DNA of 29,120 nucleotides from contig JABSSW010000103.1 of assembly GCA_018902385.1 (NCBI GenBank), positions 1-29,120 of the forward strand, written 5' to 3'. This document shows positions 1 through 29,120 of this stretch, in pieces; position 1 is the first letter of the stretch; every line of letters begins with the position of its first letter. The notes below the pieces were generated by a model that had not been told where the DNA came from, ran no database searches, and saw nothing but the letters and a program-made list of their open reading frames with translations. The DNA comes from Physcia stellaris (taxonomy: Eukaryota > Ascomycota > Lecanoromycetes > Caliciales > Physciaceae). Position numbers and translations under genes: made by a program.

Positions 1-690
1 AATTCATTTTTTCATCGATATTCAAGCACGAAATGAAATCGTAATCGAATATGAAGACGTTCACTTGAACATATTCGAAAAAAAACTGTGACGAATAGTT
101 GTATACGTGCTTCTTCGCATGTTTGATATATTTTTCGTCTTGCAAACGCTTGATATTATACGTGTTGATTCGTGAATCAACGCTATGATAATTCAAAAAA
201 TGATCACGTAATTCGTCTGAATTATCGAAAACAATTGAACATTTGTCACACGTTCAAGAATTTAAATTCAGTTCAAATTTATTGCTATCGTTGAAAAAAT
301 CTCAATCGTTGCATTGTGATGCTCGAATTGTTGATGTTCAATTTTTTTTTTCGTGATCGTGATAAATTCTTTGTTGATCGTCATTTTCTTGATTCGCGTG
401 ATAAGCAAAAATCTGAATATGAACTGAATTGACGAAAAAAACGTTGTATGTGAATTTCGTTCACGAAATTTGTCGTTGTGAAAATGTTTCAATCATACGC
501 TGTTGATCATATTGCTGATTGACTGATCGTGAATTACTAAAATATTGATTTTGACGATTTTGATTGTTTCATTGATTGTTACGCGAATATGCTGCTCGAT
601 TATTGTTTTGATAATTGATTTGATCGTTGTTTTGATACGATCGCTGAAAATTTGCGAAAAAACTTGATCGTAATTTTGATTGTTCATGTA
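1..690 (-). pseudogene. E0 gag C-terminus: Gln/Asn-rich tract and C2H2 finger
   Basis: Between about 690 and 450 the minus strand encodes a Gln/Asn-rich segment (YQNNDQINYQNNN, then NNQNRQNQYFSNS) broken by one TGA at a likely Trp. Further on, 250-185 encodes C-x2-C-x12-H-x4-H (starting CDKCSIVF, ending FLNYH), a C2H2 zinc finger. The remaining codons to the window edge stay open and are charged. Gag proteins usually bind RNA with a CCHC knuckle. Here a C2H2 finger takes that place as far as can be seen, as in the gag-like proteins of elements A and B. The protein may continue past the left edge. Confidence 0.6.
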
Positions 691-699
691 TTCTTTTTC

Positions 700-1390
700 A
701 CGCGAATAATTTTGATTTGACTGTTGATATTGAAAATATTGATTTGAAAATGCGAACAGTAAATTTGATTGACTTTGAAAATTTCAACGTTTTTTTGATG
801 AAATTTTCATTGCATAATAACGTTTTCATACATGCTCAAATTTTTTAGCAGATTCATGAATTTCAAAACGATAATTTTGAAAATTGATTTTTTAATATCA
901 CGTTGTAAATCGAATGCAAAATGATTTCAAATTCACGTGAATTGATTATTGATCGTCGTGAAATTTGTATTTTTCGCATGACGAATTACGTTCTGAACGT
1001 ACGAAATAATTGTGCGTTTGTTGCGCACGTTTTCGATAATATATTTATTTTCGACGAACAAATTCATGATTTTTGATTCGCTCATTTTGAAACGATTGAT
1101 GAAATTTTTTTTTCAATTTTGAAAATTTTGATTTCTTTTCAGATCAAATCGTTATAAATCGTCTAATTCGTCGATATATCATGTTTGAACGTCGTCTTGA
1201 AAACATTTATGCAAATGTGTACGAATTAATCGACTTTTTTTCGAAATTGCAATCGATTTGATCGCATCGATGAATAATCACACGTTTCGATAATATATTT
1301 TGTTCGTCACGATGACGTAATCATCATTTTCATACGATTCGAATTTGTGTGAATCGAAATAATCGATATTCGATTCACGAAATTTATTTT
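700..1390 (-). pseudogene. E0 gag core (retrotransposon gag domain), decayed
   Basis: Gag forms the cytoplasmic virus-like particle that packages element RNA. In one minus-strand frame starting near 1380 I read the order typical of fungal Ty3/gypsy gag. First comes an IDYFDSH motif, then a DDYVIVTNKIYYRNVxLFIDAI segment, a QDDVQTxYIDEL region, and INRFK. After that come YVQNVIRHAK and finally NQFTxIxNHFAFDLQRDI. The x positions are TGA stops where tryptophan is expected (for example the Trp in the ..W.IDEL block). The frame is otherwise largely continuous. Stops arise from TGG codons, while CAA, CAG and CGA codons survive, which fits G-to-A change at GG. Not functional. Confidence 0.7.
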
Positions 1391-1505
1391 TCGATGCTCA
1401 GATTTTTCATCTTTTTGAATTTCGCTAGTCGTAACATGACGTTTTGTAAAAAATCGTTGTCGTCAAATCGAATTGATTTGAAAAAGTCATTGAAATGAAA
1501 TTTAT

Positions 1506-2075
1506 TCAAATCGTTTTTGAATTGAATAAATTTAAAATTATCGTACAGATCAGACGTAATGAATTTGAAAACGATGATTTTCGACATTTCGATCGAAAAA
1601 AATCAAAATGTTTATGATGACGTCGTTTTTCACGATCGTCATTTTGTTTTCGATTGAGCGTTTTTAAATGTTCAATGATTTGATTGAAACGATCATCGAA
1701 TTTGATATCGAATTGATTGAATCGTTCGTCGATTTTTCGAAATTGTTTTTTTTGTATTTCGACAACGTCGAAATTGTGTTGATCGATAAAATCAAATTTT
1801 TTGAACAAATGTTTCATCGTTTGTCGTTTCGTTGATTTATCAGAAAGTCGAAATATTTCAATGACGTCGTAAAATTTTCGAATTTTTTTTTTTTTGTTCA
1901 AAATTCGCTCATTCGTTTTTGCAAAAATTTTTTGATTTTTCGACTGTTTATTTTTGCGACGTGAATTCATCGAAATTGACGAAGATAAATCGATAATCAT
2001 ATCGTGAAAAATATGCAAAGAATCGACATTTGACGAGTTATCGAAAACAGATGATTGTTTCGAATTTGAAATCAT
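1506..2075 (-). pseudogene. E0 gag N-terminal region, coiled-coil
   Basis: An open stretch of about 189 codons starts at a true ATG (2073-2075). After a Ser/Asn-rich start and a basic KNKQ-type patch comes a charged segment with repeated FDxxFDDRFNQ-like units and DDREKRRHH, consistent with a coiled coil. It lies directly upstream of the recognisable gag core and in the same orientation, so I infer it is the N-terminal part of the same protein, now separated by frameshift. No enzymatic motif is present. It could instead be a separate small ORF in the leader. Confidence 0.5.
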
Positions 2076-2508: not shown

Positions 2509-2619
2509 TGTTACTATCTAAAAGACAAAAGACAAAATATGAATTCGTGTCGAAATTTTGCGAAAACGCTAATTTCTTCTGATCAAGATATTCTGATTGT
2601 GTGAAAATTTATCGTAACA
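2509..2619 (-). repeat. 5' LTR of E0 (111 bp)
   Basis: The segment starts TGTTAC and ends GTAACA, a perfect 6-bp terminal inverted repeat of the TG...CA type expected of LTRs. Its right edge coincides with the point where the G1 integrase frame is broken, which independently supports the boundary. The host base run next to it is CGTTT (2620-2624) and should reappear as the target duplication beyond the left edge. The partner LTR is outside the window, so the LTR call cannot be confirmed by pairing. At 111 bp it is short for an LTR. Confidence 0.6.
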
Positions 2620-2935
2620 CGTTTGCTGAAAAACAAATCGATAATAAAATTCATGATAATTTTTTTTTCAAAAAATATTCGAAACAAATAAAAATTTGAA
2701 TTTTTCATAAAATTTATATCGATGAATTTTGATACGTTAACATATCATGTCACAAATTTTGATATATGAACGAATTTGTTTCGCGCAAACGAATCAATAA
2801 AATTTTCGTTGAATCAAATTCACAATTTTATCAATATCAAAATGTTTTATCAATGAATCATTGTGATTTTTGTTTATGAATTTTTTATTGTTGCATTTTC
2901 AAATACATAAAGACAATTTTTAAATCTAAAAAATT
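2620..2935 (-). pseudogene. G1 integrase, N-terminal zinc-binding part, truncated by E0
   Basis: Integrase inserts element cDNA into the genome. The minus strand shows CLYVFENATIKN, the usual LYVP....R block. A one-base frame slip in a poly-A run follows. Then come NHNDSLIKHFDIDK and NLIQRKFYW, which match the HHDDPLAGHFG...RKYYWP region, and then CDIC, completing an H2C2 zinc site. The start of the catalytic core is visible as a MNFIIDL motif, where families carry MDF..DLP, so the first catalytic Asp is now Asn. The reading is lost at the E0 LTR border; the rest of the core should lie beyond E0. Confidence 0.8.
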
Positions 2936-3429
2936 TTCGAAATTCATTTTTCAATAAAATTTGTTGCGTCGACGACGAAATGATTTTTGTTTTTTTTTGA
3001 CAAATTTCTTAATCGTTTTGTCGATAATTTGAAATTTTTTAATCAAAAATTTCATCGATTTTGCGATTTTTCATAAAATTTCTCAAATAAATTTCGTATT
3101 TTTTTCTAAAAATGACAATTTGTACATCAATTAATTGAAACAATGAATTTAAATTTTTTTAATATTTCGCGTTTGTTTTTCGCACGCGCATTGTTTTTAA
3201 ATAATTGAATATTTGTTGCGATGTTCGAAACAAAATTTTGATTTTCAAAATCGATTCGTTTTTTTGACGATAATGCAAATTTATTTTGCAACGTGAACAA
3301 AAACTTGATATTGAATAACGATATTTTTCGTAATTTGAACGTTTCGATAATTCATTTGTCGAATTGATTTTGTTTGCACGATGAAAAATTTCGAAATCAT
3401 AAACAATTAATTTAAAAATTCATTTGATT

Positions 3430-3640
3430 TGTTTTGAATTAAACTTTTTTTGTTTCATAAATTTTTTTTAAATTATTGTAATCAAATCACATTTTCATCG
3501 CGTGCGTAACGTTTTCGAAATAACATCGTCATTGTTGAAAAATCATAATTATAATTAATAATTTTTGATTATGAATTTCGTAATTCATTTTTGTCGATAT
3601 CATTTTTCGCGATCAAAACGCGATCGAACGTCAATGATTT
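3430..3640 (-). pseudogene. G1 RNase H domain
   Basis: RNase H removes the RNA strand during reverse transcription. The minus-strand frame near 3618-3440 carries a SRK motif followed by MNYEIHNQKLLIII, equivalent to the (Y/F)SRKL...NYEIHDKELLAIV signature. A QxRCYFE block (WRHYLEG equivalent) follows, then KMxFDYNNLK, equivalent to V.TDHKNL. Conserved Trp positions are TGA. The D-to-N change in HDK (now HNQ) fits G-to-A after G. The segment joins the RT with no intervening gene, as expected for one polyprotein. Confidence 0.8.
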
Positions 3641-3718
3641 TGTTCATTAAATTGATTAAAAATATTTGAAATTTCGAAATTCGAAATATCGATTTTCATT
3701 TTGATTTTCTTTGCAAAA

Positions 3719-4660
3719 TCATAATGATAAAAAATGAAAATCGATATAAAAATATTGCGCAATCGACAAAACGTCAATTTCGATTTTTTTTTCAAATAAA
3801 AAATTCAAATTTTTGTTTTGTTTATTGTTTTTCAACAAATTAATAAATAATGCAATCAATTTTGAATAATCATGAATAAAACGACGATAATAATTGACGA
3901 AATTTAAAAACATTTGTAATTCGCGATAATTTTTAAATTGCGATCATTTCTCAATAATTCGAATTTTTTTTGAATTCATTTGTACATTTTCAATGAACAC
4001 AATAAAATTTAAAAATTCGATTTGATCGATAACAAATTCGCATTTTTTTAAATTGACATACAATTCGTATTGTTTCAATCGCTTGAACACAAAACGCACA
4101 TGTCGTCAATGTTGCGTTGAATCGTTGTTATATATCAAAATATCGTTCAAATAAATCACACAAATAACGTCGACAAGTTTTCGCAAAATTTTATTGATAT
4201 AAATTTGAAAAATTGTTGAAACATTGATTAATTCAAAAAACATAATTTGATATTCAAAATGTTTATATCGCGTACAAAACGTCGTTTTTCATTCGTCGTT
4301 TTGCTTGATGCGAATTCGATAATAAACATTTTTCAAATCGATTTTAATGAATTTTTTAACATCATTAAAACGATTCAAAATTTTTGTGATCAAAAATGAT
4401 AAATGACGATTTTTGATAATTATCGCATTCAAATTTCGATAATTCACACAAAAACGAAAATTTTCATTTTTTTTCGATACAAAAAATATCGACGCGTCAA
4501 TCAAAAAAATTGAATATTTAATTTTTTTTTTGATCAAGACATTTTCGATGTAACGTCGAAATTTCGTTAATTTATTTTGTGATAAATTATAAAACGACAT
4601 GAACGACGATTTTTCGTTTTTTTCAAATCAATAACATGATCATTTTTATTTAATTCGAAT
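3719..4660 (-). pseudogene. G1 reverse transcriptase
   Basis: The RT copies element RNA into DNA. From right to left on the minus strand I read MSFYNLSQNKL (the PLYNLS start), FVSKKNENFRFCVNYRNLN (LFVKKKDG.LR.CVDYR.LN), FIKIDLKNVYYRIRI (palm motif A, Asp retained) and a TGA at the Trp of DEWKTAF. A RYKHFEYQIMFF block follows, then VIYLNDILIY and finally the connection MFLNFVNYYRRFIHDYSKL. The catalytic YLDD box is YLND (4142-4153), so one metal-binding Asp is Asn. The whole domain reads with few or no indels; the loss is by transitions. Confidence 0.93.
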
Positions 4661-5089
4661 AAAATATTTGTTTTAATGTTGTCAAATTGATTTTTTAAAT
4701 TTTTTAATTACTTTGACATTTTCGTAATTTTAAATTTTTGTTTTTTCGATTGTTTTTCGATTTTTGCACACATCAACGCGAATATTTGTTCGTGATTTTT
4801 TAAATTCTTGACAAATTGTCTAAACGTATCAATTTGAAATTTTTTGAATTTGATTTTGAAACGTCAATTGTTTTTTGTCGAATTCATTAATATGTTTTCG
4901 ACAATCAACATAAACATATTCAAAATAAAATTCGATTCAATATAATCAATTGTAAAAAACAAAGTTTTGCATTTGCGATGTTGATTTCACGAATTTATTA
5001 TGTTGTAAATGAATTCATGCGTTTCATAACAATAACGATTTTGTTCATTCAAAAAATTCGATAACGATAAAATAATTTCGTTTATCGAT

Positions 5090-5190
5090 TGCATTTTTCA
5101 TTGAATGACAAAAATTTGATTGATAAAATTGATTTTGATTTCAAAATTCACGAACGCGCGAACAAATCGTTCATTTTTCAAAAATTTGAT
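5090..5190 (-). pseudogene. G1 aspartic protease active-site region
   Basis: The minus strand near 5165-5110 reads VRAFVNFEIKINFINQ, which matches the VRALVDSGA..NFI.. active-site block of retroelement proteases. The DSG triad is NFE (5140-5148). Each change is a C-to-T or G-to-A transition, so the protease would be dead. It lies between the CCHC knuckle and the RT, the normal place in gag-pol. The rest of the domain (to about 4900) is readable but weakly conserved, and I assign it only by position. Confidence 0.65.
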
Positions 5191-5342
5191 TCAATCTTGA
5201 ATCACGATAAAATTTCGAATTTTTATTGATTTTTTTTGTTTCGTTTGCAAAACGTTCGCGAAATTTGATTTTTTTTTGATTCAAATGTGAAATTGACGAC
5301 AACGATAATATATTGATTATTCGATTCATTTACATCAATTTT

Positions 5343-5384
5343 ACAATCGAAAACATAATGATTTTTGCGATGACATCGATAACA
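5343..5384 (-). pseudogene. G1 gag nucleocapsid CCHC zinc knuckle
   Basis: The minus strand encodes CYRCHRKNHYVFDC, a C-x2-C-x4-H-x4-C knuckle with all four metal ligands kept. Knuckles of this kind bind element RNA during packaging. The usual Gly residues have changed, which is expected for GG-containing codons here. It marks the gag/pol border of G1. Confidence 0.85.
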
Positions 5385-5399
5385 CGTTGATTTTGTATT

Positions 5400-5969
5400 T
5401 TGATTATTTTCATTGCGTTTTCGTTTGTTTTTCGCATGCGTGTGCGTTCAGAATCGTGAAAAATGTTTTGATTGAAACGATTTTGCGATTAATTTTGCTG
5501 CTGATTTTGTTGTTGAAATTGTTTTTTATTTTTATTTTTTTATTTTTTTGAAAATGTTTTGATTATTTTGAACATGCGAATTTGTTCGTCGTTCGCGTTC
5601 AAAAATTTTTTTCAATATAACGATTTTCGCAAACAAATTTTTTTTATTCATCGATATTTTTTCGATATTTAACAACTTTTTTTTCAACGATGACAATAAT
5701 TTACAAAAAAAAAATCGATCGAATAAATTTCATCAAAAAACGACAAATGAATTTTGTATTTTTCGAATTTATTTTTAAAATTAAACATTTTTTGATTTGC
5801 ACGTTAACGAATTCGTTTTCAATTTTCGTAAACGACGAATCGACGATTCATTGAATTTGCTATCAAATTCAAACAAAAAAATTATAATAATCGTAAAAAA
5901 TATTTTTCAAATTTTTATCGTTGTCGATGCGATTGAATCACTGAAATTGAAATTTTTTTTCGCAACGAT
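5400..5969 (-). pseudogene. G1 gag, middle part, left of the element A insertion
   Basis: On the minus strand this carries the second half of the gag core, including RANQKMFNFKNKFEKYKIHL, with tryptophan-type stops. If element A and one copy of its 5-bp target duplication are ignored, the frame continues from the gag segment at 12535-12620 with no shift, which shows the two pieces belong to one gene. The spacer between about 5400 and 5600 has Gln- and Arg-rich decayed codons leading to the CCHC knuckle. Confidence 0.65.
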
Positions 5970-6185
5970 TGTGAAATGCTATGCAAAAATATAATACTAC
6001 TACATAATTACACGAGAATATCGAAGTGAAAAAACAAATACAGAAAATTTGACAAAACATATGTAAAAAATTTGATTATAAACGAGATTCGATTCTGTCA
6101 TTCGATGTGATAAAATAAAAATGTTAATTTTAATGACTGATCAAATGTTGATTTCAGATGTTGAAATCGATGCACGTTCGTCACA
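5970..6185 (-). repeat. 3' LTR of element A (216 bp)
   Basis: The plus-strand ends are TGTGA and TCACA, a 5-bp inverted repeat. It matches the copy at 12319-12534 except for about 12 transitions and one transversion by eye. Ten of the transitions are at CpT/ApG steps. It also matches both LTRs of element B. Confidence 0.93.
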
Positions 6186-6203
6186 TTATTTTTTCTTTTT
6201 TTT
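6186..6203 (-). other. Polypurine tract of element A
   Basis: On the minus strand an unbroken A-rich, G-containing purine run (aaaaaaaagaaaaaat plus aa) abuts the 3' LTR. This is where plus-strand DNA synthesis primes in LTR retroelements. The same tract with its flanking gaaactg is repeated inside the element at 7958-7976. Confidence 0.75.
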
Positions 6204-6542
6204 CAGTTTCGTTTCGAAACAATCAATTGATTTTTTTTTTGTCGATCGACAAGATACGTGATTTCGATAACTTGTTCGTAAACGCGTTGAGTTCATAACG
6301 AACGCGACAATCGTAAAAACGTTCAAAAATCTGAAATGAAAACGACGAAAACGACGAAAAATTTTTTTGCAAACTATTTGCAATTTTTGCATCTGCGAAA
6401 ACTGTTGAATGTCAGAGATATTTGACGTTTAATATGATAAAACGATTGTTTTTTTCGCAAATTCTTGAGCATGCATGCGAAATTCATTAGTAATTAATAC
6501 AAATACACGAAAAAACATGAAAAAACGTTTTCGAATTTTTGT

Positions 6543-6857
6543 TCGAAGTTTGATTGCGAAACATGAATCATGATATTTGCGAGTAAATAATATGATAAAT
6601 CATTTGAAAATATTTGAAATTCGAAAATCTTGAAACCGACTGATCGAGATGAAAAAATTGTTCAACGTTTTGAGTTTTTGATTAAAATAGCGATTCGTTT
6701 CTATCAGATTTTCGATGTGAATAGAAATATTTGTGCTTTGATGACGAATGCAAATTTATACGAAATATTTGAAATCGAAATCATTGCAATTGATAAAGAA
6801 ATTGATTCGCAATCAATTCGCGAAAAATGCAAACGATAACGTAAATAATAAAACGAA
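6543..6857 (+). pseudogene. Antisense coding relic in element A (unassigned protein)
   Basis: The plus strand, opposite to the element's own gene, encodes about 105 codons. They include KPTDRDEKIVQRFEFLIK, FYQIFDVNRNICALMTNAN and LYEIFEIEIIAIDKEID, ending with REKCKR. In-frame stops at 6588, 6615, 6837, 6846 and 6849 coincide with TGA stops at the same codons in element B, as expected if all were TGG. A further TGA at 6564 is a CGA codon in B. Conserved Trp positions and a continuous frame suggest a former protein. I do not recognise the family. It could be captured host sequence or part of an older element. The corresponding copy is 14689-15027. Confidence 0.45.
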
Positions 6858-6989
6858 AATTGATTTTTTCAGAATTTAATACGTAATTTAGAGTGTAAAG
6901 AATCGAAAACTCGAGTTTTTCAATGTAATGAAAACATTAATGTAAACATTGAATTCTGACAACATTAGACGAATTATACGATGAAATTA

Positions 6990-7330
6990 ACAATTTAATC
7001 ATGTTAATAAAATTAACGCAACAACGTTTAACGCGTTGATATTGATGCATACGCAATAATTAATGTGTACATTGCATTCAGCGCAATCTGAATGTAATGA
7101 ATTTTTTGAAAAATAACTGATTTAAACAATTTTTCAAAAACAATTTCGACGATCATTTGAAAATGATCGTTTGAAATATCAAATCGATTTTATCACGAAA
7201 AAAACGATTTCGTCGTGTCGATAAAATCACTGTTTCGATGTTTAACGCATTGATATTCGCGCATATATGAAAATTGATTCGTACATTGAATTTAACAAAA
7301 CGTGCATGTAATAAATTTTTTAGAAATCAG
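6990..7330. repeat. Two diverged tandem units in the 3' module of A
   Basis: The string around tttaacgcgttgat at 7027 recurs at about 7241 (period near 214 bp), followed each time by a related 'gcat..cg....ttga..gtacattg' block. The same two-unit structure with period 221 occurs in element B, so the duplication predates the split of the two copies. Confidence 0.6.
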
Positions 7331-7957
7331 ATAATTTGTACGAATTTTACAAATAATTTCGTTAATCATTAATAAACAATATTTCGCAAACATGTGTTGT
7401 TGAAAATTTTTCGAATTCGAGTTTTTGAAATTTTGATTAATCGATGTTTTTTGATTGATTGCAAACAAAAAGTAAACGATAATGCGAAATTGATATGTGA
7501 CAAATGATCGAACGTCGATGCTTTGCGAAAAAAAACGACGCTTTTGATGTTGCGATAAATCAATTGATTTGAATTTTTCATGAAACATGCGAATCAGATT
7601 ATCGATTGTAAAATGAAATTTTTGATGTTTCGAAACAAATGTTCGAAAAGATGTAAACGAGCAATGAAATGTTGCAATTTTGACGCGTTTTGATGTAATT
7701 TTTCGAATCGTTAACATTATTGCAATTTTTGTTTGTTTTGATGTAATATCGAATGTCGCAATAGAAAAATGCGAATTTTTTGATGATATCGATGCAAAGC
7801 AAAATATCGACTTTGATGTTACAGAAAAAGAATAAACAAAATGAACGAAACAAACGAACAAACGATTACTGATTTTTTCTTGATTTTGTACGTGATTTTG
7901 AGTGTAAAGAATTGAAAATTCGAAATTTTGATGTTTCGTGACTGAATATTCGAACAA
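7292..7957 (-). pseudogene. Second, partial copy of the gag-like C-terminal domain (A only)
   Basis: This 221-codon open stretch repeats the C-terminal part of the gag-like protein encoded at 8056-9102. Shared blocks include KHQKFHFTIDNLIRMFHEKF (compare HQKFHIQKFYLTVNDLNRMF), an SQHQKRRFFSQS segment, and AINQKTSINQNF...QQHMFAK. It lies downstream of an internal polypurine tract and upstream of the true one, so the 3' end of the element has been duplicated. Element B lacks this block at the same place. Apart from the duplicated C-terminal domain no function can be assigned. Confidence 0.6.
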
Positions 7958-7976
7958 TTTATTTTTCGTTTTTTTT
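7958..7976 (-). other. Internal duplicate of the polypurine tract (A)
   Basis: The plus-strand string ttatttttcg + ttttttttcag + tttcgtttcgaaa matches the sequence at the 3' LTR border of both elements. It lies 1.77 kb inside element A. The equivalent in element B is at 15600-15617. Confidence 0.6.
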
Positions 7977-8055
7977 CAGTTTCGTTTCGAAATTACAAAT
8001 TCAATATTGACACGATCAATGAGCGAAATGACTCGCTGATAAACGTTAATACAAC

Positions 8056-10497
8056 TCATTTTTGCAATTGAAATGATCGAAACGAATGCGAAAACAAGAA
8101 ACAAAACTGAAAAAAAAGCGAAAAAGTATAAAAATGAAAAAAAAAATTTCGAATCGATGTCGAAAACATCGAACATTTTGTATAACAATTTGATCGATTT
8201 TCAGACAAATTTTTGTTAAAAACAATGCGAATTGATTTCGCAAACATGTGTTGATTCAAACTTTTCGATTTTAAATTTTTTGAATTTTGATTAATCGACG
8301 ATTTCTGATTGATTGTAAATCTAAAGTAAAAAATAATTCGCATTTGATTTGAAAAAATGTTTCGAAAAAATACGTTCATTTGATTTTCGAGCTGACTTTT
8401 TTGACTGTAAAATAATTTTTTTTTGAGAAATTTATCGAACATCTCGAACAGATTTTCGATAATAAAATAAATTTTTTTCGAAAAAATTGAACATGATCGA
8501 ACGAATTGACGAAAATCAAAATTTTGCGAAAAACGACAACGATTTTGATGTTGTTGCAAATCAAATGATTTAAATTTTTCGACAAACATGCGATTCAAAT
8601 CATTCACAGTTAGATAAAATTTTTGAATGTGAAATTTTTGATGTTTTCGAACTGAATCAAACGATGAAATAAATAAAAAAATGAACGAACAAACGACAAT
8701 TGCGTTTTTCATCGATTTTGAATTAATTTTGTATGTCGCAATCGAGAGATTCGAACATTTCGATGATAAAAATTGCGAAACTATTTTCGTCGAAAATATT
8801 TGATTTCGTGATGTTGCAAAAAAAATAAACGAAACAAACGAAACAAACGAACATTCAATTGTTGATTTTTTCTTGATTTTACATGTAAATTCTGATGTAA
8901 AAATTCGAAAATCAGAATTTTTGACAGATTTTCGAACATGACGTTCGCGAATATGTTCGTGAAACTTGTTATTGAAATTGAAATTTTGTTTGCAACGTTT
9001 GCAAGTTCGAACGCAAACGATTTGTTGAATCGAAAATTTTTTCATCGATTTTGATGCAGATTCGAATGCTGATATTTGAAAAATTGTTCGTTCAATTTTC
9101 ATTTTTACGCGAATGTAAACAGTTTGAATTCGAATATTCGCGATAATTTTTGCATTTTTTGCAAACGAATCTGATGTAATTTTCGTGTTTTTTTTATGTG
9201 ATTTTGAATGTCGTAATCGAAAAATTCGATCGTTTCGAAAAATCGATTTGCAACGTTGTTTTCGTAATTGATATCAAGTTTTTTGATGTTGCAAACGAAA
9301 CAAATGATTTATGCGAAATCGACAAATCAATGATTGTTGATTTTTTTTTCGTTTCGTATGTTGATTTGATTATATCGATCGAAAAAAATGAATTGACGAT
9401 TGAACGTTTTTGAACATCGATTTTCTGAAATTTTTGAACAAAAATTTGCAATTTTTGCGAAACAAACAGAATCGTCACATTTTTGATTGCTGATTTCTTT
9501 TCTGTTTTGCATATTAATTTGAATGTATGAAATTAAAAAAACGAATTGATGACATGATTTTTTGCATGTTGATCGCGTTTATGTTCGCGAAACGATTTTT
9601 TGAAATTGAAAATTTCGTCGCAATGTCGACACGTTGATAATTTTTTCGTCGATTTCGATGCAATTTCGAATGCAAAAACTGAAAAATCGAACGTTTCAAT
9701 AAAATGATTGTTTCAAATGTTATTGAAAATTCGAATATCGATTTCTGAAATTTTGTGAATGATTCATGCGATTTCTGCGAAACGAATGATTTTTTCTCGA
9801 TTTCGCATATTAAATTGATTGCATTGATCGAAAAATGAAAATTTTTGACGAGTTTGAAAATTTCATGATTGCGAATATGTTCGTATAATTTTTTGTTGAA
9901 ATTGAAATTTTGCTTGCAAAGTTTGCAAATTGTTCGAGCGTTTGTAATTTCAAAATTTGATAAAATTTCGATCGATTCTGATATCATATCGAGTGTATTT
10001 AATTGAAAATTCGAATTTTTTGAAATACGTCGTATAAACGTTTTTGAAAACGCTTTCGCTAAAATTTTATCGAAACGTTTTAACGAAATAAATTTTGATT
10101 GAGTTTTGAATCATTCAAACGCAAAATCACATAAACAATTCGACAATAAATTCAGCAAATTTGACTTGCGATACAAATGTCGACATTGCTGAAAATGTTG
10201 CAAAAAAATCGCTGTTTCGTTATAAAAATCGAATTCGAACTCGTCAAATGTTAATGTTGAATCGAAAATATCGATATTTTGAAACGTTGATATTGACTTG
10301 ACAATCTGTTTTGCTTTCGAAATTTTTTTGAATTTCGAAATTTCAAATTTGATTTTCAATTTCTGTTGTTTCTGCGAAGAAAACGAGCAAAATTTTGTTG
10401 ATTTCTCAAAGATTTCGCAAATTATTTCAGATGCAAAAATTGAAAAAAACAAACTGAACAACGCGTTGAAAATAGATGAAAAAAATGCATTCGTCAA
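8056..10497 (-). pseudogene. Gag-like protein with three C2H2 fingers (element A)
   Basis: Reading right to left, the minus strand first gives FLQHFQQCRHLYRKSNLLNL and then LSNCLCDFAFE followed by TGA (10111) and FKTQSKFISLKRF. This resembles the gag helix motif ending in a '...L.G.A..WF' block, with the Trp now a stop. Three fingers follow: 9927-9865 (C-x2-C-x12-H-x3-H), 9631-9566 (x4 spacing, CRHCDEIF start) and 9003-8938 (CKRCKQNF start). Each is embedded in a Ser/Thr/Lys-rich module. The C-terminal part (9102-8056) has YLTVNDLNRMF, an LQQHQNR segment and TINQKSSINQNS. Stops and frameshifts break it into at least four pieces. I infer particle formation and nucleic-acid binding; no enzyme domain is seen. 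Confidence 0.65.
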
Positions 10498-10539
10498 AAC
10501 TGTATCGAATTCGTGTAATGAAATGAATTTCGATTGATC

Positions 10540-12130: not shown

Positions 12131-12318
12131 AAACGAATCTATTATGTTTCGTTTTTTTCAATTCACAACGAATCTATTATGTTTTGTTGTTTTCGTTGAA
12201 TGATCAAACAATATAAATTTATTATATTTCTTTATCGTCATTGAATTTGACAGAAAATTTTGTTTATTTAATGTTCGCGTATTTTATAACGAACATGACG
12301 TGATTAATTTCGATATAA
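12131..12318 (-). other. Leader next to the 5' LTR of A: triple repeat and hairpin
   Basis: Three imperfect copies of a motif close to acgaatctattatgttt begin near 12133, 12168 and 12210. Between them and the LTR lies a hairpin with 7-bp perfect arms (atgttcg...cgaacat, 12271-12296). Both features are kept in element B. The position just downstream of the 5' LTR is where packaging and dimerisation signals sit in retroelements. No primer-binding site could be matched to a tRNA end. Confidence 0.5.
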
Positions 12319-15590: not shown

Positions 15591-15599
15591 TGTAAACGT

Positions 15600-18185: not shown

Positions 18186-19531
18186 TCGTCGAATCATGTA
18201 TTGACAATGTCATAAAAAATTGTTTTCATTTTATTCAGCAAATTTGATTCGCAAAATAAATGCAAACATTGTTGAAAATGTTGAAAAAAATTTGCGATTT
18301 CGCAAAAATTTTTTTTTTGAATCAAAATAAAAATATTTCGAATTGAAAATGTTTAAATTTTTGAATATTGAAATCATTTGAATGATCGAAAAAAAACGTT
18401 GACTTGCTGAATAATTGAATGTAATTTTGAAAAATTTTCAAACACAATGAATAAATTCAATATTAAATGTTGATGCAAGATTTCGTCAAAAAATTTTTGT
18501 CGTTTTCGACGAAATGTTATTGAATTCAACTTTGTGACGAAAAAAACGAAATTTTTTCGTTATTGAAACAAATATGATCGAGCAATGTTTTCAAAAAAAC
18601 GAATGATTTCAATATTGAGTTTTTGTCAAAATATTGAACGAAAATATGAAAAATTTGAAAAATTGATTTGAAATTTGAACTCGAAATGTTATCAATTTCA
18701 TCACGAATGACGAAAAGTCAAATCAATTTGATAAGCAAACAAATGTAAATTTTGAAAATTTTCAAAAATCAAAAAATGATTCATGTATTGATATAAAATT
18801 GTCAATATTGAAAATTTTGTCAAAAAATTGACTGATTTTCGAACTCGATTATTTGAAAAAATTTGAAATTTTTTAGACGAAATATTGAATTGATCGAATG
18901 AATAAAAAAAAACGATCGATTCGCTAAAAATCTAATAAAAATTTTGAAAAATTTTCGAAACAAATAAATGATTCGAATTCGATCGAAAAATGAAATTTCA
19001 ATCGAAAATTTCTGATGTAATGATTAAATTTTTGAAATCGTAATTTTCGATGTGAAATTTTGAAAAAGTGATATTGAATTCATCGCAAAAATTGAAAAAA
19101 AAAATCGTTTTATTAAAATCAACAATCACGTTTTCGAATTGTTTTTCAAACAAAATGAATGATTGCAATACTGAATGTTGATGAAAATTTGAATGATTTT
19201 TTGATTCGATATTGAAATTATCATCGAAACAGAAAAAAAAAATCGTTTTATTATGATCAATAAATATTTGTTCGAATTGATTTTCGAACAAAAATGATGA
19301 TTCGAATAATGATGTCGAAAATTTGATTGCTGATCGAATAACGAAATTTCTGATTCGATTTTTATTCAGATATTTTTTGTATGATGTTTTTTGATGATTT
19401 AAATTTGATTTGATAATTTTTTGAATTTCAAACACGAATGTTTCGTCAAAAGTGATAAAAATTGTTGTTGTTTGTGAATCGAAACTATCGCGTAAATTCG
19501 TTTGTTCTGAGCGTTTTTTAAGACAAAACAA
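18186..19531 (-). other. Repeat-rich 5' region of element B
   Basis: The minus strand at 19531-18998 is open for 177 codons. It starts with KKRSEQTNLRDSFDSQTTT and FVFEIQKIIKSNLNHQK (shared with A). It then shows two tandem units of the form F(E/E)(N/K)QFE...NKTIFFF.F.D.FNI. Near 18240-18300 a second FQHFQQC.HL...SNLLN unit is visible. I read this as the upstream, internally repeated part of the gag-like gene or leader, with the exact start unresolved (the first codon seen is TTG). Confidence 0.45.
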
Positions 19532-19717
19532 ACGAGTTTATTATGTTTCGTTCTTTTCAATTCACAACGAATCTATTATGTTTCGTTGCTTTCGTTGAAT
19601 GATCAAGCGATACGAGTCTATTATGTTTTTTTATCGTCATTGAATTTGACAGAAAGTTTTGTTTATTTAATGTTCGCGTATTTTATAACGAACATGACGT
19701 GATTGATTTCGATATAA
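19532..19717 (-). other. Leader next to the 5' LTR of B: triple repeat and hairpin
   Basis: Three copies of a motif close to acgaatctattatgttt, better kept than in A, precede a hairpin with perfect 7-bp arms at 19670-19695. Arms and loop (cgtattttataa) are unchanged between A and B. Confidence 0.5.
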
Positions 19718-19933
19718 TGTGAAATGCTATGCAATGATATAATACTATTACATAATTACACGAGAATATCGAAATGAAAAGCAAATACATGAAAATTCGA
19801 CAAAACATATGTAAAAGATTTGATCATAGACGAATTTCGATTTTGTCATTCGATGTGATAAGATAAAAATGTTAATTTTAATGAGTGATCAGATGTTGAT
19901 TTCAGATGTTGAAACCGATGCACGTTCGTCACA
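19718..19933 (-). repeat. 5' LTR of element B (216 bp)
   Basis: TGTGA/TCACA ends. It keeps more AG and CT steps than the other LTRs (including one CC at 19915), so it is the least mutated of the four. Confidence 0.93.
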
Positions 19934-19938
19934 AAAAA
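19934..19938. repeat. Target-site duplication of element B (AAAAA)
   Basis: Five A residues follow the right LTR and five precede the left LTR (13573-13577). The low complexity makes it weaker evidence than the ACGAT of element A. Confidence 0.6.
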
Positions 19939-20268
19939 TACGAAAATTTCAAAAAAATTCGCAATGAAAACGAATTAAAAATTTGAAAATTAAAAAAATG
20001 TCGAAAACAATATTTCGAATAAAAAAAATTTAATGAAAATGAAAATTTAAATGCAAATCAATTCGATGATAATAATATTAACAATAATAAAACGAATAAC
20101 GATAAAAAGTTCGAATTTTGAATAAATCGAATAATATGTTAAAATAATGCACAAATTAACAAATCGAAAAACGTCACATGAAAAAAACAAATCGACGAAT
20201 GAATAATAATATTGATATAAACAAAAACAAAATATTAATCAAAAAATCATAAAAATTGATTTTTATTT
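19939..20268. other. A-rich spacer, no gene seen
   Basis: No reading frame or RNA gene is evident. A short string (aataatgcacaaattaacaa, near 20144) resembles one left of element B (near 13540), so the two flanks may be halves of a local duplication. Confidence 0.3.
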
Positions 20269-20358
20269 CGTTCAAATTTTTCGCGTTTAAATTTATTACG
20301 TTCAAATTTTTTGCGTTCAAATTTTTTTCGTTCAAATTTTTTGTGTTCAAATTTGCAA
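20269..20358. repeat. 15-bp tandem repeat, six units
   Basis: Units close to cgttcaaattttttg begin at 20269, 20284, 20299, 20314, 20329 and 20344, an exact 15-bp period with one to four changes per unit. It lies about 110 bp upstream of the histone-like relic. Confidence 0.85.
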
Positions 20359-20478
20359 TTCAATCGAACAAAAAATCAATCGCAAAACGTTCGAAATCAT
20401 TAATTAAAAAAAAATAACGAATAAATCGATAATGCATTCAAATTATGCGTTATCGAATATTGATTAACACATTAATAA

Positions 20479-20853
20479 AAACACAAACGAACAAAATTCG
20501 AAATGATCGCATTGCGCGAAATTAAACGTTTTCAAAAAATTATTGAATTATTAATTGCAAAAAAATCGTTCGCGAAATTTGTGAAAAAAATGATAAAAAA
20601 TATAAAAACGAATGTCAAAATTCAAATATCGATTTTTGAAATTTTACAAAAAAATATCAAAACGTTTGTCACAAAAATGTTTGAAAATAAATCAAATGCA
20701 TTATTTTTGCGCATTATTTTAATAATTAATTTTTATGAAATAATTCATGAAAAAACAATTCATACGAAACGAATAACTTTTCAAATAAAAAATATTCATT
20801 TTGTTCGAAAATTTTTGAAAATATTTGTGAACAACAACGTCACAATCATTTAA
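20479..20853 (+). pseudogene. Decayed histone H3-family gene
   Basis: Histone H3 is a core nucleosome protein. The open frame gives KFEMIALREIKRFQKIIELLI, aligning with KPGTVALREIRR.QK.TELLI. It continues with AKKSFAKFVKKM (.KLPF.RLVREI), IKTNVKIQIS (FKTDLRFQSS), ILQKNIKTFVTKMFEN (ALQEA.EAYLV.LFED) and finally TIHTKRITFQIKNIHFVRKF (AIHAKRVTIQ.KDIQLARR). Many changes are C-to-T or G-to-A in CC/GG contexts (Pro to Phe, Gly to Glu, Asp to Asn). About 18 extra codons between the FEN and TIHTKR blocks have the size of a fungal intron and may be an unspliced one. The N-terminal tail is missing upstream of a TAA at 20476. Loop 1 has canonical H3 length, without the extra residues of CENP-A. The C-terminus is extended. 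Confidence 0.75.
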
Positions 20854-22900
20854 ACACAACGTTAATTTTGTTGAATAATTAATTTACATAATTTAAATTC
20901 GTGTTTGAATTTTGTTTTTCAAATCGATATTTGTTATAAATGAAATGAAAATTGAATCGATTAACATTTAAAAAACGCGAAATATCAAATTATGTATATA
21001 TTTGACAATTTTGTTGTCGAATTATTATCAAAATCATATAAAACGAAAACAAAATTTTTGTCAAATATGACGCAACAAAATATTATCAATTTTCATGCTG
21101 TTTATAATTGATTTCGATTTATAACAATATTTCATCAAATAATAATAATATGATAAATCACTTTTTGTTAATTTTGAACAATACATTATATCATTATTTT
21201 TCATTTTAATTTTTGAATTGTTAAAATTTAATTTATGTTTTTCAAATAACGCAATATAAATATGAATTTTAATTTTTGCATTAAATTATTGCGTGCAACA
21301 AAATAGTAAATATCGAATTATTCGAATATTTAATTTTTCAAAAAATCAAAAATTATCATAAATAAAACAAAACAAATGTTTATAATAACAATATTTGTTT
21401 TTTAATAAAGTTGAAATTTCTTTTCGATTGTTGAAAACAAATAATTTTAATATATCGAAATAAAAAATAAAAAATAAAATATCGATTTAAAAAACGATTT
21501 AACGAAAAAATAATAAAATATTATTCGATTAATTTCGTATATAAATTAAAATAACACGATTTGATATATTATTTCAAATATATTATATATCTTTATATAA
21601 ATCATTTAAATTATTGAAACATATATTATTTATATTACAATCATAAATTTATAATTATATTACAAATAAATTCGAAAGTTTTTTTTAAAAAAACTTTGTT
21701 TGAATTGATATAAAAAATTTATTGAATTTTGAATTTATCAATTTGTATACAATCAAAATTTCGCATTTCAATAATTCAATGTTTTCGCGTCAAAATTCAA
21801 CAAATATTGCAATATCAAATTTTTTTCATCGAATTTTACAATTTCGATTACATAAACGAAAATTATATTAAATTCTTGATTGATGTGTAATGTACGAAAA
21901 ATTTGCATCAAAATTTTGATGTTTTTCGTCAAAATTGATTTAAATCAATAAAATAGTAAGTTTTTGAAAAGAAAACGATAAATATTTTTAATAAAATGTG
22001 TTTTATCATTTTATTATATCTTATTTCGCATATGATTAATAAAATGACAATTTTTGTAATTTTATAATAATTTATATATAATATAATATTGAAATGTCAA
22101 TTCATATTATTTCGTACGTTTTTATTGTGATTATATTTTTATTTTATTAATTGTTTAAATTATTGTACGTTAATATTTTAATTTCAAATTTGTATTCTTT
22201 AAAAACAAATATTTGTATCATATATATGTTTGAATTTGAATTGAAAAAACGTTTATATTGAATTTCAAATTTTTAATTTTAAAAATGTATTTCAATTAAA
22301 TTTCAAAACTCGAATATAATTAATATCAATATTCGTTTTGAAAGTTTCAATTGATTGAATTTTCAATGAAAAATTTATGACATTAATTTCTATATACGAA
22401 TTGACATGTTCAATAATTTTCTAACTAATTTAATATTTTTGTTATGAACAGTTATTCGTTTTGCATAAATAATTAATTTGTTAACAATGAATAAATATCA
22501 ATAAAATTATGATTTCAAAGTTTGAACAATAAAAAAAAATATTTATTTTCGAATATATCAATAACATAAATTTCGATTGTTTTTGTAATGTTTTCAAAAC
22601 ATTTGTTTAAATTCGCATTTCGACATTTTGATCAATTATTTCAAACAAATTTTTTCGAATCATTCGTTAAAATGACAATTTTGATATCATAAAATCAATC
22701 AATTTTTGATATTTTCGAATTTTTTTAAAAACGTTCAATTTTGTTTTGTTTTTGATTTAATAAAAATCAATTTGTGCGAATCAAATACATTATCAATATA
22801 CATTATTTTTTTTTATTTCGATTTTTTGTTTCAAACATTATTCGAAACAATTTTACGCGAAATTTCAAAAACGATCAAATCGATTTGAAAATTTTTTTGT
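20854..22900. other. TA-rich stretch, no gene seen
   Basis: About 2 kb with many TA steps and runs of tat/ata (for example 21570-21680) and few CG steps, unlike the retroelement blocks. I find no protein motif, tRNA or LTR. It may be old intergenic sequence mutated for longer. Confidence 0.5.
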
Positions 22901-22904
22901 TGAA

Positions 22905-23230
22905 TTATTGATAATTTTTTGCGCGATTTTTTTTTTCAATATCAATTTCACGATTTTTATTTCGTGAATTTTTAATTCGTTTATTCACGATTTTTTTTCG
23001 CGAATTATTATTGATTTGAAATTGATCAATTCGTTTTTGAATCGTTAAAAATGCGATGATGTTTTCGTTCGCAACAATATCGTTAAATTTCGATATTTTT
23101 CGCGATTTTCGATGCACATTATCAATATTTTTTTCGAAATTTTCAGTAAACGAATTGATTTTTTCATTTTTTTGTTTTCGACATCATTCAAAAATTTCGT
23201 GATCACGATATTTAAAAAATCATTTTTCAA
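22905..23230 (-). pseudogene. Possible charged, coding-like relic
   Basis: Two overlapping minus-strand frames give highly charged sequence, for example HRKSRKISKFNDIVANENII and KRIKNSRNKNREIDIEKKNR. Several Asn and Lys could derive from Asp and Glu by G-to-A change, implying an originally acidic/basic repeat protein or coiled coil. There is no recognised domain, and low-complexity AT-rich DNA could give the same picture. Confidence 0.2.
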
Positions 23231-23460
23231 TTTTTAATCGACAAACATTATTATCAAACATTGTTTCGATTCATTTTATCGATGATTTTTTCGAAATTTT
23301 CAAAAAACGTATTGTTTTTTTTTTTTCATTTTTTTTTTTTGACATCGTTCAGAAATTCGATGATTATTGTATTTAAAAAATCAATTATTAATTTTTAATT
23401 GTTGAATGCATCATTATTAAACATTATTTCGATTCATCTCATCGATGTTTTTTTTTCTTT
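23134..23460. repeat. 157-bp tandem repeat, two units plus a partial third
   Basis: tcgaaattttca begins at 23134 and 23291. Each is followed by a T-rich run, gacatc.ttca, tatttaaaaaatca, aca/catcattattaaacatt and ttcgattcat...atcgatg. A third unit starts near 23448 and fades. The period is not a multiple of three. Confidence 0.7.
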
Positions 23461-23599
23461 TTTTTTCGTGTCATTCAGTTCAAATTTTAAACATTTTTTC
23501 AAAATCGAAAAATCGATATCAATTTCGTTTTTTATGAATGTTTTATCGTTTCGCGAATTGAAATTTTCAATTTCGAAAATGTTTGAATTTTGAAAATGT

Positions 23600-24340
23600 T
23601 TTGATAAATTTGTCGTTGAAAAATATTTTCGAACAAATTTTATTGTTTTATCAATAATATATTCAAACAATAAAGTGAAAAATACAAATTTTCAAATTTC
23701 ATAAAATTCATTTTTGTTTGCGTTACGAAATAATTTATCAAATAAAATATTAATAATAAATTAATTAAAATATTAAAATGAAAATTGAAAAAAAATCAAC
23801 GTTTATACGATTCGAAAATTAAATTTCGCAATTATATGCGATTATGCGCAATTTAATTAATTCTTTCGATATTTTGATTGAATGCAAATAATTTATACAT
23901 TATTTGTTTGCATTATCGATGATTATTGCAAATTTCATTTCAAATCGTTTATTATTAAATTTTGAAATCATAAAACGAAATACATTTTTTATTGAACGAC
24001 GAAAATGATTATTTATCGCAATTTTTTGTTTTTGTTTTTTTATCGTTTTAATAAATTTCAAATTTTCGAAACAACGTTTTTAAATTTTGCATTTATCGTT
24101 CGATTATAATATTTGATCATTATCGTTTTTTCGAATTGAAATCTGAAAAGAAATGACAATCATATTGTGTATAACAACTATTGCGAATACATCTCATAAC
24201 AAAACAATTTTCGAATTCAGTGATTTATTCAAAACAACAAAATTCTCATAAATCAAAACAACGATCAATTTCTATATTTGTTACTTTTTTTTTCATTACA
24301 GTTTGTCTCTATTCTATATCAACGTCTTTTTTTTTCACAA
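23600..24340. other. AT-rich spacer, no gene seen
   Basis: No protein motif or RNA gene. From about 24130 the sequence keeps more CT/AG (for example tctctattctat near 24305), marking a less mutated segment. Confidence 0.4.
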
Positions 24341-26195: not shown

Positions 26196-26199
26196 GAAT

Positions 26200-27450
26200 G
26201 ATTTCAATTCAGAATTTTCGTTCGTGAATTTTTCGTCATTTTCGATATTCGACTGATACGTAAGTTCTAACGAAATTTTTTTAAATTTGATTTCTTTCAA
26301 CAATGAAACGTGAAAAACGTCATGAATTCGTCAACGTTTGAATATTTCGAATTGATATGCTTGATCTTTTATTATTTTAAATATTTTGAATGAATCGAAA
26401 AATTTTCACTCGAATTTCTTATTGCGTTTGATGCGAATGTTCTTGTTTGCGTTGACGTTGACGTAATTTTTACGTAAAAACGTTTTATTTTTTGTTTTTG
26501 CATTTTTGTATTTGATTTGTTGTTTCTGTGCGTATGTTAAATTGATTTTCAATATTTTCATCAATTCGATCAACTTTTCGACATGTTTTTCGCAAATTTT
26601 GATTTAATTTTGAAATTTGCAAATTTTTCGAAAAATATTTTCGAAAAATATTTTTGCATTGTCACAAAAAACGACATTTGCGTTGACGCATGTTTATTGT
26701 TGTTGTAAACAAATTCAATCATCGACAATAATTTTATTCAATTATTCTGTTGAAAATTGACGTAAATTCTGAAATATTGTTTCATGATTGAGTTTTGACG
26801 TTTCGTCTGATCGTTTGTTTGCGAATGATAAACTGTGAATATTTTAAATTTGATTTTTAAAACATAACATAAAACGTCGTGATATTTCGAAATAAAAATC
26901 GATTTTCTGTCTGTTGTTATCGATAAGAAAAATCATGAAATTTAATGATTTTCCGAATCAATATTTCGACGAAATTTTTTGCGATCATTGTTTTCTTGAT
27001 CGAAATGTAATGTGTCATTTTCGTCAAACGATTTACGACAACGAATATTGAATCGTACGTTGTTTCGTTTCATGTTTTGTTTTCAGATAAATTTGTCACG
27101 AAATTCATAATAATGTCAGTTCATTTGAATTTCGATATGAAAAAAAACGATAATTTTTCGTATGACTTGTGACGAAATGTTTTGTTTTTTTTGCAAATTG
27201 CACATGTTTCGCAATATTTTTTTATTTGTGTTCGCATGTTTGAATCATGTTGAGAATTTTTTCTTCTTTTTTCGTTCGATCAGTAATATTTTCGTCGTAT
27301 TAATTTCAAAATACGTTTTACATCGAAATGATTTGCGAAAAAATTGTCATGATTCGTTTTTATGACGTTTTTTCTCAAATTCGATAAAACGTACAAACGA
27401 TTTTCGTGTCACAATACTTTTTTCGTTTACTCAAAACGAGTGTGACTTTT
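26200..27450 (-). pseudogene. G2 integrase
   Basis: Reading leftward: RLYVLSNLRKNVI and NHDNFFANHFDVKRIL..IRRKYY (H2 half of the zinc site), then CETCAICKKNKTFRHKSY (C2 half). The core starts MNFVTNLSENK, where the DDE Asp of MDF is Asn. It continues with YDSIFVVVNRLTKMTHYI, where the DRLTKM Asp is also Asn, and then EFVYNNNKHASTQMSFF (the E.AYN...H.STG.SPF block). A further FKIIKDQAYQFEIFK segment leads to the chromodomain. Several frameshifts and Trp-type stops break it. Both Asn changes are G-to-A after a purine. Confidence 0.85.
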
Positions 27451-27636
27451 CAAAAATAATTAATTTTTGTCTCACTTGAATCGCACAAGAATTTTTTTTA
27501 ACAATGAACGAATCAATTCGACAAAATTGTCAATGATTTTATCATCGTATGTTGCATCATGTTTATGAATATGTTTTCGCGCAATCATTTCGTCGATCGA
27601 CTCGAAAATCGTTGCACTATTCAATATTAATATTTT

Positions 27637-28110
27637 TCATTCGTTGATAATCACGTTTGATATATCTGAAACGTCAAAAAAATCACTCGAAAAATTGTTT
27701 TTTTTATTTTTTTCAAGAAATTCGCACGCGAAATTTTCATTTTCGTTGAATTTGAGCATCGTTGTTTTGATTTCGTTTACATAAATCGAAAATTCGTTTG
27801 AATTCGTTTGTAAAAATTGTCGCAAACGCGTCAAAATTTGACGATTGTTTTCAATTTCATTTTCGATGATCGTCATGTGATCAAATCGTTTTGACAAATC
27901 GTTCGTAAAATTTTTATTGTCGAAACGATAATCGATGACAAAATTGTAACGTGACAATTTTTGTGCCATCGTATTTGTCGAAATGATAATTTTGTTTGTA
28001 ATCGTGGAAACGACTGAAATTTCGATGATTCGTCAAAACGAAAATTTGTTTTTCGTTTTTTCAAATAATGACGTCGATGTTTAAATGCGAAAATTATGAT
28101 CAAAATTTTT
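27637..28110 (-). pseudogene. G2 RNase H domain and pol spacer
   Basis: The block FKHRRHYLKKRKTNF (FKEWRHYLEG..) is followed, after frame slips, by AQKLSRYNFVIDYRFDNKNF and TNDLSKRFDHM. These correspond to WAQ.LS.YDF.I.YRPG..N.ADALSRRPD, the RNase H end. The open frame then runs about 80 codons further (27880-27637) as an acidic spacer typical between RNase H and integrase. CC survives at 27966 and GG at 28006. Confidence 0.8.
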
Positions 28111-28329
28111 TGTCGTGAATTTCATACTAATTGCATTTCGCGAATATCATTTTTTTTGAAAAATAAATTATCGAATGTCAATGATCTTTGTCGTCTGATT
28201 GACAGAATATTTTTCTATTGCTTTATTCGAAACGTCAATTTTCACACGAATGAATCTAATCGAATCGAAATGTTGCAAAACAGAAATTTTCATAAACGCT
28301 TTGCGTAATCGTTTGAATGATTCGAAAAT

Positions 28330-29120
28330 TTCGAAAATCAAAAATTCGTTCGATAATCGTTTTTATTGTGACTTTTATTTCGATTTCGTTTTTTATTTTT
28401 TTTGTGAAGTTTTGCTGATTTCTTTAACATGAAAATTAAAAATAATGTCAACTTATTGAAATTTTTGATAAATCGTTTATAAAAATTACACAATTCGAAA
28501 AATTCGAGAATTTCGAACACGTTTCTAAATGCAAATCAGTTTTGTATGATTTCGATTTTGTTCTGTTGCATTTGCATTTCTTTCGATGAAACGATAAAAC
28601 TCAAAAACTCGATATTATTTTTGAAAAATTTACGGCTTTTTGTTAAAAAAGAATTTGTGCTTTTTAAACGATTTAATATTCATTTGACGTTTTCGACGTG
28701 CTGTGTTTCGTTTTTGAAATAAATAATTATCGTTAAATAAACAATGACGAACAAGTTTAATCGCTCGATCAAAATCTTGTTGACGAAATTCTGAAACGTT
28801 GCAAATGCATTAATGAAATCGAAAAACATAACGATATATTCAAAATGTTCGTATCGTGTTTTGAACGCTGTTTTTCATTCGTTTTTTTTTTAATACGAAA
28901 TCGATTGTAAATCGTTATCATGTCAAAACTTGTATATTTGCGAATTTTGCTTAGACGATTCAGACTTTCATCGATTAATAATAAAAATATTTATTCTTGA
29001 TCGTTAAAAAATTAAAATTTCTGTAATTTACGCACAATCGTAAAGTTTCGTTTTCTTAACGAACAAGATTGAAACGCTCGCAAAAAAATGAAAAATTTGA
29101 TAAATTCGTTTTTGAATGTT
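28330..29120 (-). pseudogene. G2 reverse transcriptase, partial at the right edge
   Basis: From the edge leftward: FIKFFIFLRAF (the IRPS.SPAGAP block), RKRNFTIVRKLQKF (KK.G..R.CVDYR.LN), LLLIDESLNRLSKIRKYTSF and DMITIYNRFRI (motif A). Next come TAFKTRYEHFEY, INAFATFQNF, and VIVY followed by a one-base slip at the YLDD box. The connection ELCNFYKRFIKNFNKLTLF ends it. The N-terminal fingers region is cut by the window border. Both a frameshift at the catalytic box and Trp-type stops inactivate it. Confidence 0.85.

Follow-up and report, generated by a model that had tools for sequence, protein, structure and literature searches.

Introduction

Repeat-induced point mutation (RIP) and RIP-like processes turn cytosines of fungal repeats into thymines, and the systems compared here differ in the base that follows the mutated cytosine. 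Here we compare with them a stretch of 29,120 nucleotides from the genome of Physcia stellaris (hereafter the window), in which the cytosines lost are mainly those followed by a pyrimidine (CpY). For Neurospora crassa the quoted order of targets is CpA>CpT>CpG>CpC, and in T. reesei CpC likewise comes last (PMC5496416; this and the other papers on RIP are cited for the parts of their texts that were available). A CpT bias alongside CpA has been described in Botrytis, Sclerotinia and Magnaporthe, with a RID motif proposed to account for it (PMC4352252), and CpT is dominant in the N. crassa element Tad1 (PMC2621366) and in the fungi that van Wyk 2021 used as controls (PMC7882544). RIP-like C-to-T changes of a CpG type occur in transposons of Microbotryum and Tuber (PMC4352252), and CpC to TpT double changes have been seen alongside classical CpA RIP (PMC8959702). 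According to a k-mer survey, RIP-like defences have a CpA preference in common across fungi; in its available text the 130 species with strong recent signatures belong to four classes, Lecanoromycetes not among them (PMC12543289). In Cladonia rangiformis retroelements form sharply bounded islands of very high AT content, and RID and DIM-2 homologues are present (PMC12542154); Cladonia metacorallifera and Gyalolechia flavorubescens are RIP-positive by the classical indices (PMC7882544).

The window is part of contig C103 of an assembly of 43.97 Mb in 147 contigs, somewhat smaller than the published P. stellaris genome of 46.57 Mb in 184 scaffolds with 43.32% GC (PMC7513301), in the main text of which the terms "point mutation" and "transpos" are absent.

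Results

CpC and CpT are lost from both strands of the window

Counting all 16 dinucleotides of the window (A 10555, C 3407, G 3990, T 11168) gave five CC and two GG (observed/expected ratios of 0.01 and 0.00), where about 399 CC and 547 GG are expected from its base composition. CT (395; ratio 0.30) and AG (330; 0.23) were strongly reduced, and CA (1429; 1.16), TG (2080; 1.36) and CG (1578; 3.38) were retained; TA stood at 1725 (0.43), TC at a ratio of 1.36 and GA at 1.54. The depletion is continuous, with at most two CC or GG in each 2-kb step. The initial annotation, made by eye, had noted about seven CC or GG steps, a loss of CT/AG, and CpG and CpA kept, and had read these as targeting of CpY on both strands. 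All seven steps are exactly at the places it named, the CT/AG loss is borne out by the ratios, and neither CC/GG nor CT/AG stands at the level that composition predicts.

By the classical indices the window does not look like a RIP product: TpA/ApT is 0.44 (threshold at least 0.89), (CpA+TpG)/(ApC+GpT) is 1.51 (threshold at most 1.03), and none of 57 1-kb windows passes the usual thresholds.

The signature is absent from ordinary DNA of the same genome, as a comparison with gene-rich sequence, proposed in the initial annotation, made clear. We sampled 340 windows of 500 nt from 17 arbitrarily placed 10-kb loci, and in the 302 with a GC content of at least 0.45 the mean ratios were normal (CC 0.96, CT 1.07, CA 1.10, CG 0.87, TA 0.68). 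A CC ratio below 0.3 was found in ten of the 340 windows, all within two islands (L024 and L032). CpC loss marked 10 of the 12 windows with GC below 0.38; the two exceptions were a window of L027 with a CC ratio of 0.57 and one of L032 lying across an island edge. Three edges of the two islands, which were met by chance, could be seen, and at each of them normal CC/GG counts resume within about 100-200 nt. The mutated copies aligned below are members of repeat families.

Cytosines followed by a pyrimidine are converted to thymine

We scored substitutions by the 3′ neighbour of the cytosine in two retroelement families, each against unmutated copies. The Ty3/gypsy-type pol region of the window (2619-5969), which is 92-94% identical to the mutated copies L007, L009 and L010, was compared with its unmutated relative L001 (C52). 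It showed 934 C-to-T changes, both strands counted, against 28 T-to-C changes and 21 transversions, and conversion reached 426/429 at CpC and 418/445 at CpT, with 62/425 at CpA and 28/392 at CpG. The other copies behaved alike when compared with L001 (CpC, CpT, CpA and CpG respectively: 424/430, 389/448, 26/427 and 16/392 in L007; 436/445, 386/465, 26/443 and 14/412 in L009; 421/443, 371/464, 30/442 and 22/409 in L010). L008 was left out, as its match covers only window positions 2619-4603 and its 401 transversions were taken as misalignment.

For the second family, eight mutated copies (L035-L042), chosen by hand from a list of 44 places in which six of them stand at the top and two lower down, were scored where the intact copies L002 (C5) and L003 (C12) agree. 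They hold 5219 C-to-T changes on the two strands, 74 T-to-C changes and 95 transversions, and conversion was 2929/3177 at CpC, 2086/2927 at CpT, 145/3119 at CpA and 59/3146 at CpG. In L035, the least mutated copy, the corresponding counts were 271/350, 140/333, 5/357 and 2/360. L002 and L003 themselves differ by 58 C-to-T and 75 T-to-C changes and 42 transversions, without such a context rule. On the classical indices the eight mutated copies score farther from RIP than these intact ones. Unmutated gypsy copies (L001, L002 and L003) persist although their families hold many mutated members.

The 5′ neighbour mattered little. In the second family CpC was converted at 0.94, 0.92, 0.90 and 0.93 after A, C, G and T, and CpT at 0.72, 0.75, 0.64 and 0.73, lowest after G. 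Within CCA trinucleotides of this family the first C was converted in 775 of 802 cases and the second in 48 of 907, which shows that the 3′ pyrimidine decides and not the 5′ one. Internal stops in the retroelement reverse transcriptase (RT) matches were mostly TGA, with TAG in 3 of the 150 profile rows scored among 527 candidates, as expected if TGG is altered at its CpC only.

The mutation is thus a C-to-T change on both strands with the context order CpC > CpT >> CpA > CpG and little 5′ effect. The CpY targeting put forward in the initial annotation holds in both families: the transitions fall mostly at CpC and CpT, the reverse of a concentration at CpA, and conversion at CpA and CpG is low beside that at CpY but not nil, as the converted minority in the window element shows. 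Classical CpA RIP was rejected on the negative indices together with the counts at CpA and CpC in both families. The CpG counts of both comparisons likewise led us to reject CpG deamination, and they give no sign of a CpG-directed RIP-like mutation.

Strand tracts and independence between copies

A two-state segmentation with preset rates divided L035 (C95:25093-28551) into mutated and almost unmutated stretches. In three top-strand tracts (4-627, 774-897 and 2006-2300) only 3 of 119 CpY were converted, while the bottom strand was mutated throughout (281/386 CpY), so that a single strand can be mutated alone, heavily and in tracts. Such tracts inform on what a single event does, and inside the mutated stretches about 90% of CpC and about 50% of CpT were converted. 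L036 (C51:4755-8220) was mutated on both strands (249/363 and 282/392). The choice of CpT sites converted was mostly common to L035 and L036 (phi 0.76), and in all other pairs phi was 0.04-0.21; mutation patterns are nearly independent between most copies. The three L035 tracts that lack top-strand mutations are mutated in L036, despite these mostly common choices, a difference that may reflect strand segregation or exchange between the products of one event.

A segmental duplication within the window (Table 1) can be read in the same way. It is old, with 261 transversion differences between its copies, and CT steps are mostly unshared (35 shared, 176 differing), whereas those of CA (437 and 97) and CG (385 and 92) are mostly shared, as expected if the surviving CpT are chance leftovers in each copy.

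Candidate methyltransferases

The initial annotation had suggested inspecting the RID and DIM-2 homologues, and the genome indeed encodes genes resembling both. It had also named a divergent RID/DIM-2-type methyltransferase or a deaminase as a possible mutator, a guess with which the findings are compatible, although the weak influence of the 5′ base argues against a deaminase of the APOBEC type. PF00145 gave four matches at three loci, which we regard from their sequences as candidate methyltransferases, one DIM-2-like (C3) and two RID/Masc1-like (C5 and C6), the latter label resting on sequence motifs and tree neighbours.

L013/L014 on C5 correspond to the annotated 932-residue protein P0001, which has PPCQ and EQT motifs; these we take to be markers of the RID/Masc1 class, and P0001 is assigned to it on them and on its relatives. 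Its best match is G7Y79_00005g016670 "hypothetical protein" of Physcia stellaris (99% identity), and in the tree it groups with proteins of Usnea, Alectoria, Lasallia and Heterodermia. L011 on C6, a second class-I-like methyltransferase, has 29 relatives at 60-94% identity, including one of Heterodermia aff. obscurata at 72%, and beyond these the other fungal proteins among the matches listed are at about 50% or less. The tree, in which branches are long and five forks are open, separates L011 and the Heterodermia protein from the C5 clade by a long branch (2.09). L012 on C3 carries DUF7893 and DNA_methylase and matches PDB 9bap "DNA (cytosine-5-)-methyltransferase" at 608.6 bits, presumably the DIM-2 protein of Neurospora.

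Comparison with described RIP systems

Two marks of RIP in the broad sense are present: near-exclusive C:G to T:A change on both strands, as the counts of the two families show, and an encoded methyltransferase of the RID/Masc1 class (P0001 on C5, plus C6, with the class judged by motifs and relatives). We class the process as RIP-like, a variant that follows a CpY rule; it works like RIP and falls outside the classical CpA definition. It shares with classical N. crassa RIP the strong, inactivating C-to-T change on both strands of repeats and the presence of RID-like and DIM-2-like genes, and differs from it in the order of contexts and in that TpA has not risen. CpC, which ends the quoted target orders of both N. 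crassa and T. reesei, is here almost completely converted.

As in Botrytis, Sclerotinia, Magnaporthe, Anisogramma, N. crassa Tad1 and the van Wyk 2021 controls, CpT is one of the main targets (PMC4352252, PMC10998396, PMC2621366, PMC7882544). In those species, where the available texts name the targets, CpA is the main or second one and CpC is not, whereas in P. stellaris CpC comes first and CpA far behind CpT. CpT targeting alone is therefore not new, and it is the leading place of CpC, with CpA minor, that distinguishes the present case. C-to-T change in transposons is common to the Microbotryum and Tuber type too, but CpG, the target there, is the most spared context here. For C. rangiformis the scoring used GC content, and the terms dinucleotide, CpA, CpT and CpC are absent from the available text (PMC12542154); C. 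metacorallifera and G. flavorubescens are positive on the classical indices, on which the P. stellaris window is negative. No report of CpC-preferring RIP was found in the available texts of the RIP literature searched, which included PMC4352252, PMC10998396, PMC7882544, PMC2621366, PMC13297926, PMC12542154, PMC5602860, PMC8959702, PMC4234444, PMC5555474, PMC7493409, PMC5496416, PMC7513301 and PMC12543289, the survey of filamentous ascomycetes by Clutterbuck 2011 being outside this coverage.

Origin of the mutations

We consider it likely that the window is transposon-derived DNA that has passed through a RIP-type defence, with C-to-T change near saturation at CpY. Repeated DNA would be recognised by this defence, and cytosines would then be turned into thymines on each strand, selected by their 3′ neighbour. 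By analogy with RIP, the process would be triggered by homology and act before meiosis. The mutations would be made by a methyltransferase of the RID/DIM-2 set, the RID-like protein on C5 being the likeliest mutator, and the target choice of the mutator would have changed from CpA to CpY.

Several observations weigh against this account. In the most heavily mutated copies (L042 and the window) CpA conversion reaches 12-15%. L002 and L003, with 95% identity over 3.4 kb, are both unmutated, as is L001 despite its mutated relatives, so that the process is not constant. The CpT choices common to L035 and L036 point to an ancestral mutated state, which leaves at most seven independent copies among the eight. 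Finally, since two other Lecanoromycetes, C. metacorallifera and G. flavorubescens, are classically RIP-positive, the CpY rule is not class-wide.

A RIP-like process may be real and yet depend on the class-I-like L011 or the DIM-2-like L012 in place of the C5 protein, an alternative that we hold to be unlikely but worth weighing. The set of closer relatives of L011 and its separate long branch speak for it, as do the CpT preference of Neurospora DIM-2 (PMC13297926) and the CpT bias, with its proposed RID motif, of Botrytis, Sclerotinia and Magnaporthe (PMC4352252); the methylation preference of DIM-2 for CpT, however, leaves CpC as the best target unexplained, and the tree has the long branches and open forks mentioned above.

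Dense 5-methylcytosine at CpY of repeats, laid down by a DIM-2-type enzyme and followed by slow spontaneous deamination, would need no active mutator. A DIM-2-like protein is encoded, and Neurospora DIM-2 methylates mainly non-CG sites (PMC13297926), but CpC of the window element is almost fully converted beside only 28 T-to-C changes and 21 transversions, which implies a very fast process, and the one-strand tracts of L035, with their abrupt switches, better suit discrete events. We regard slow deamination as improbable.

The almost pure C-to-T change and the strand tracts of L035 could also be the work of an APOBEC/AID-like cytidine deaminase on reverse-transcription intermediates or on nuclear DNA. 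The choice of target by enzymes of the APOBEC/AID type is generally set by the 5′ neighbour. Here CpC conversion was 0.90-0.94 and CpT conversion 0.64-0.75 whatever the 5′ base, and a deaminase with a 5′ rule was rejected on these context tables. Moreover, both strands are mutated in the copies examined, and the repeat with a histone H3-like frame (L047) is depleted as well, without an RT match among the 150 scored of 527 candidates. A search with PF08210 (APOBEC_N) gave no match, but it is uninformative, as the control had no match anywhere either. Such a deaminase is a very improbable source. Base-composition drift or an artefact of the draft assembly, made from Nanopore plus Illumina data (PMC7513301), is hardly credible beside 94-99% conversion in CpY contexts and 7-15% elsewhere in the window element, nearly independent patterns in copies on different contigs, and normal DNA that starts within some 100-200 nt of the islands.

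Possible spread and significance

We suggest, with some hesitation, that in the Physcia lineage the target choice of RIP re-evolved from CpA to CpY, with CpC as the best target, through a changed RID-like enzyme or through a second class-I methyltransferase also present in Heterodermia, and that index surveys score such fungi as lacking RIP, so that current accounts would be wrong both on how widely RIP is distributed among taxa and on the CpA preference supposed to be common to it. The usual indices, which rest on CpA and TpA, point the wrong way for the P. stellaris copies; since they are negative here, standard RIP surveys would miss such mutation. If the RIP-type account with its CpY rule holds, AT-rich lichen genomes need re-scoring with CpC/CpT indices, and P. 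stellaris offers a natural comparison for finding which feature of RID-like or DIM-2-like proteins recognises the 3′ base.

Twenty public proteins (P0239-P0258), RT fragments that resemble the mutated RT of the window, found by a search that favours such proteins by design, keep Pro at 1 of 155, Gly at 5 of 165, His at 28 of 62 and Trp at 26 of 34 of the positions in the L001 frame, and Tyr has replaced His at 22 of the 62 His positions. This comes close to the outcome expected if CC/GG were lost and CA retained in part, and the residue pattern is no more than suggestive of similar mutation in other species. A scan of viral contigs for relatives of one mutated RT protein found none.

Other features of the window

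The features of the window are collected in Table 1.

Table 1. Features located in the 29,120-nt window of Physcia stellaris contig C103.
Feature	Position	Strand	Basis
Whole window, with CpC/GpG and CpT/ApG depletion in both strands	1..29120	.	Dinucleotide counts
Residual CC steps	6636 (6636..6637), 19915, 25158, 26953, 27966	.	Position listing
Residual GG steps	28006, 28634	.	Position listing
Ty3/gypsy-type pol region, CpY-mutated	2619..5969	-	70% identity to unmutated L001 over 3350 nt
Segmental duplication, first copy, about 6.5 kb, mutated long open frames	5970..12535	.	Six blocks 73-92% identical to 13578-19934
Segmental duplication, second copy	13578..19934	.	Alignment to first copy
Mutated repeat element	19934..24050	.	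Two blocks about 90% identical to C27 copy (L047, C27:574500-582500)
Histone H3-like open frame	20503-20853	+	PF00125 E 9.1e-6; PDB histone H3 E 1.9e-11
Second gypsy-type pol fragment, more diverged, similarly depleted DNA	26762..29069	-	tblastn with L001, L002 and L003 frames, E 6e-16 to 7e-24

The RT match (PF00078) of the first pol region lies at 4001-4477 and contains two TGA stops. In both copies of the segmental duplication CxxC...H-like motifs recur in long, mutated open frames (7292-10497 and 15707-17767 (-)); a Pfam scan of the frames 7292-7957, 8056-9102 and 15707-17191 gave no match above the cut-off and one weak C2H2 match. Scans of the window found no Rfam match at the gathering score and no tRNA. 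PF00125 has 34 matches genome-wide, 18 of them with internal TAA stops, the H3-like frame of the window included. The H3-like repeat, of which the window and C27 copies were examined, may be a mobile element that has acquired an H3 gene. Several of the PF00125 matches form opposite-strand pairs about 5 kb apart (C27, C30, C47, C59 and C72), and a pair on C4 is about 2 kb apart.

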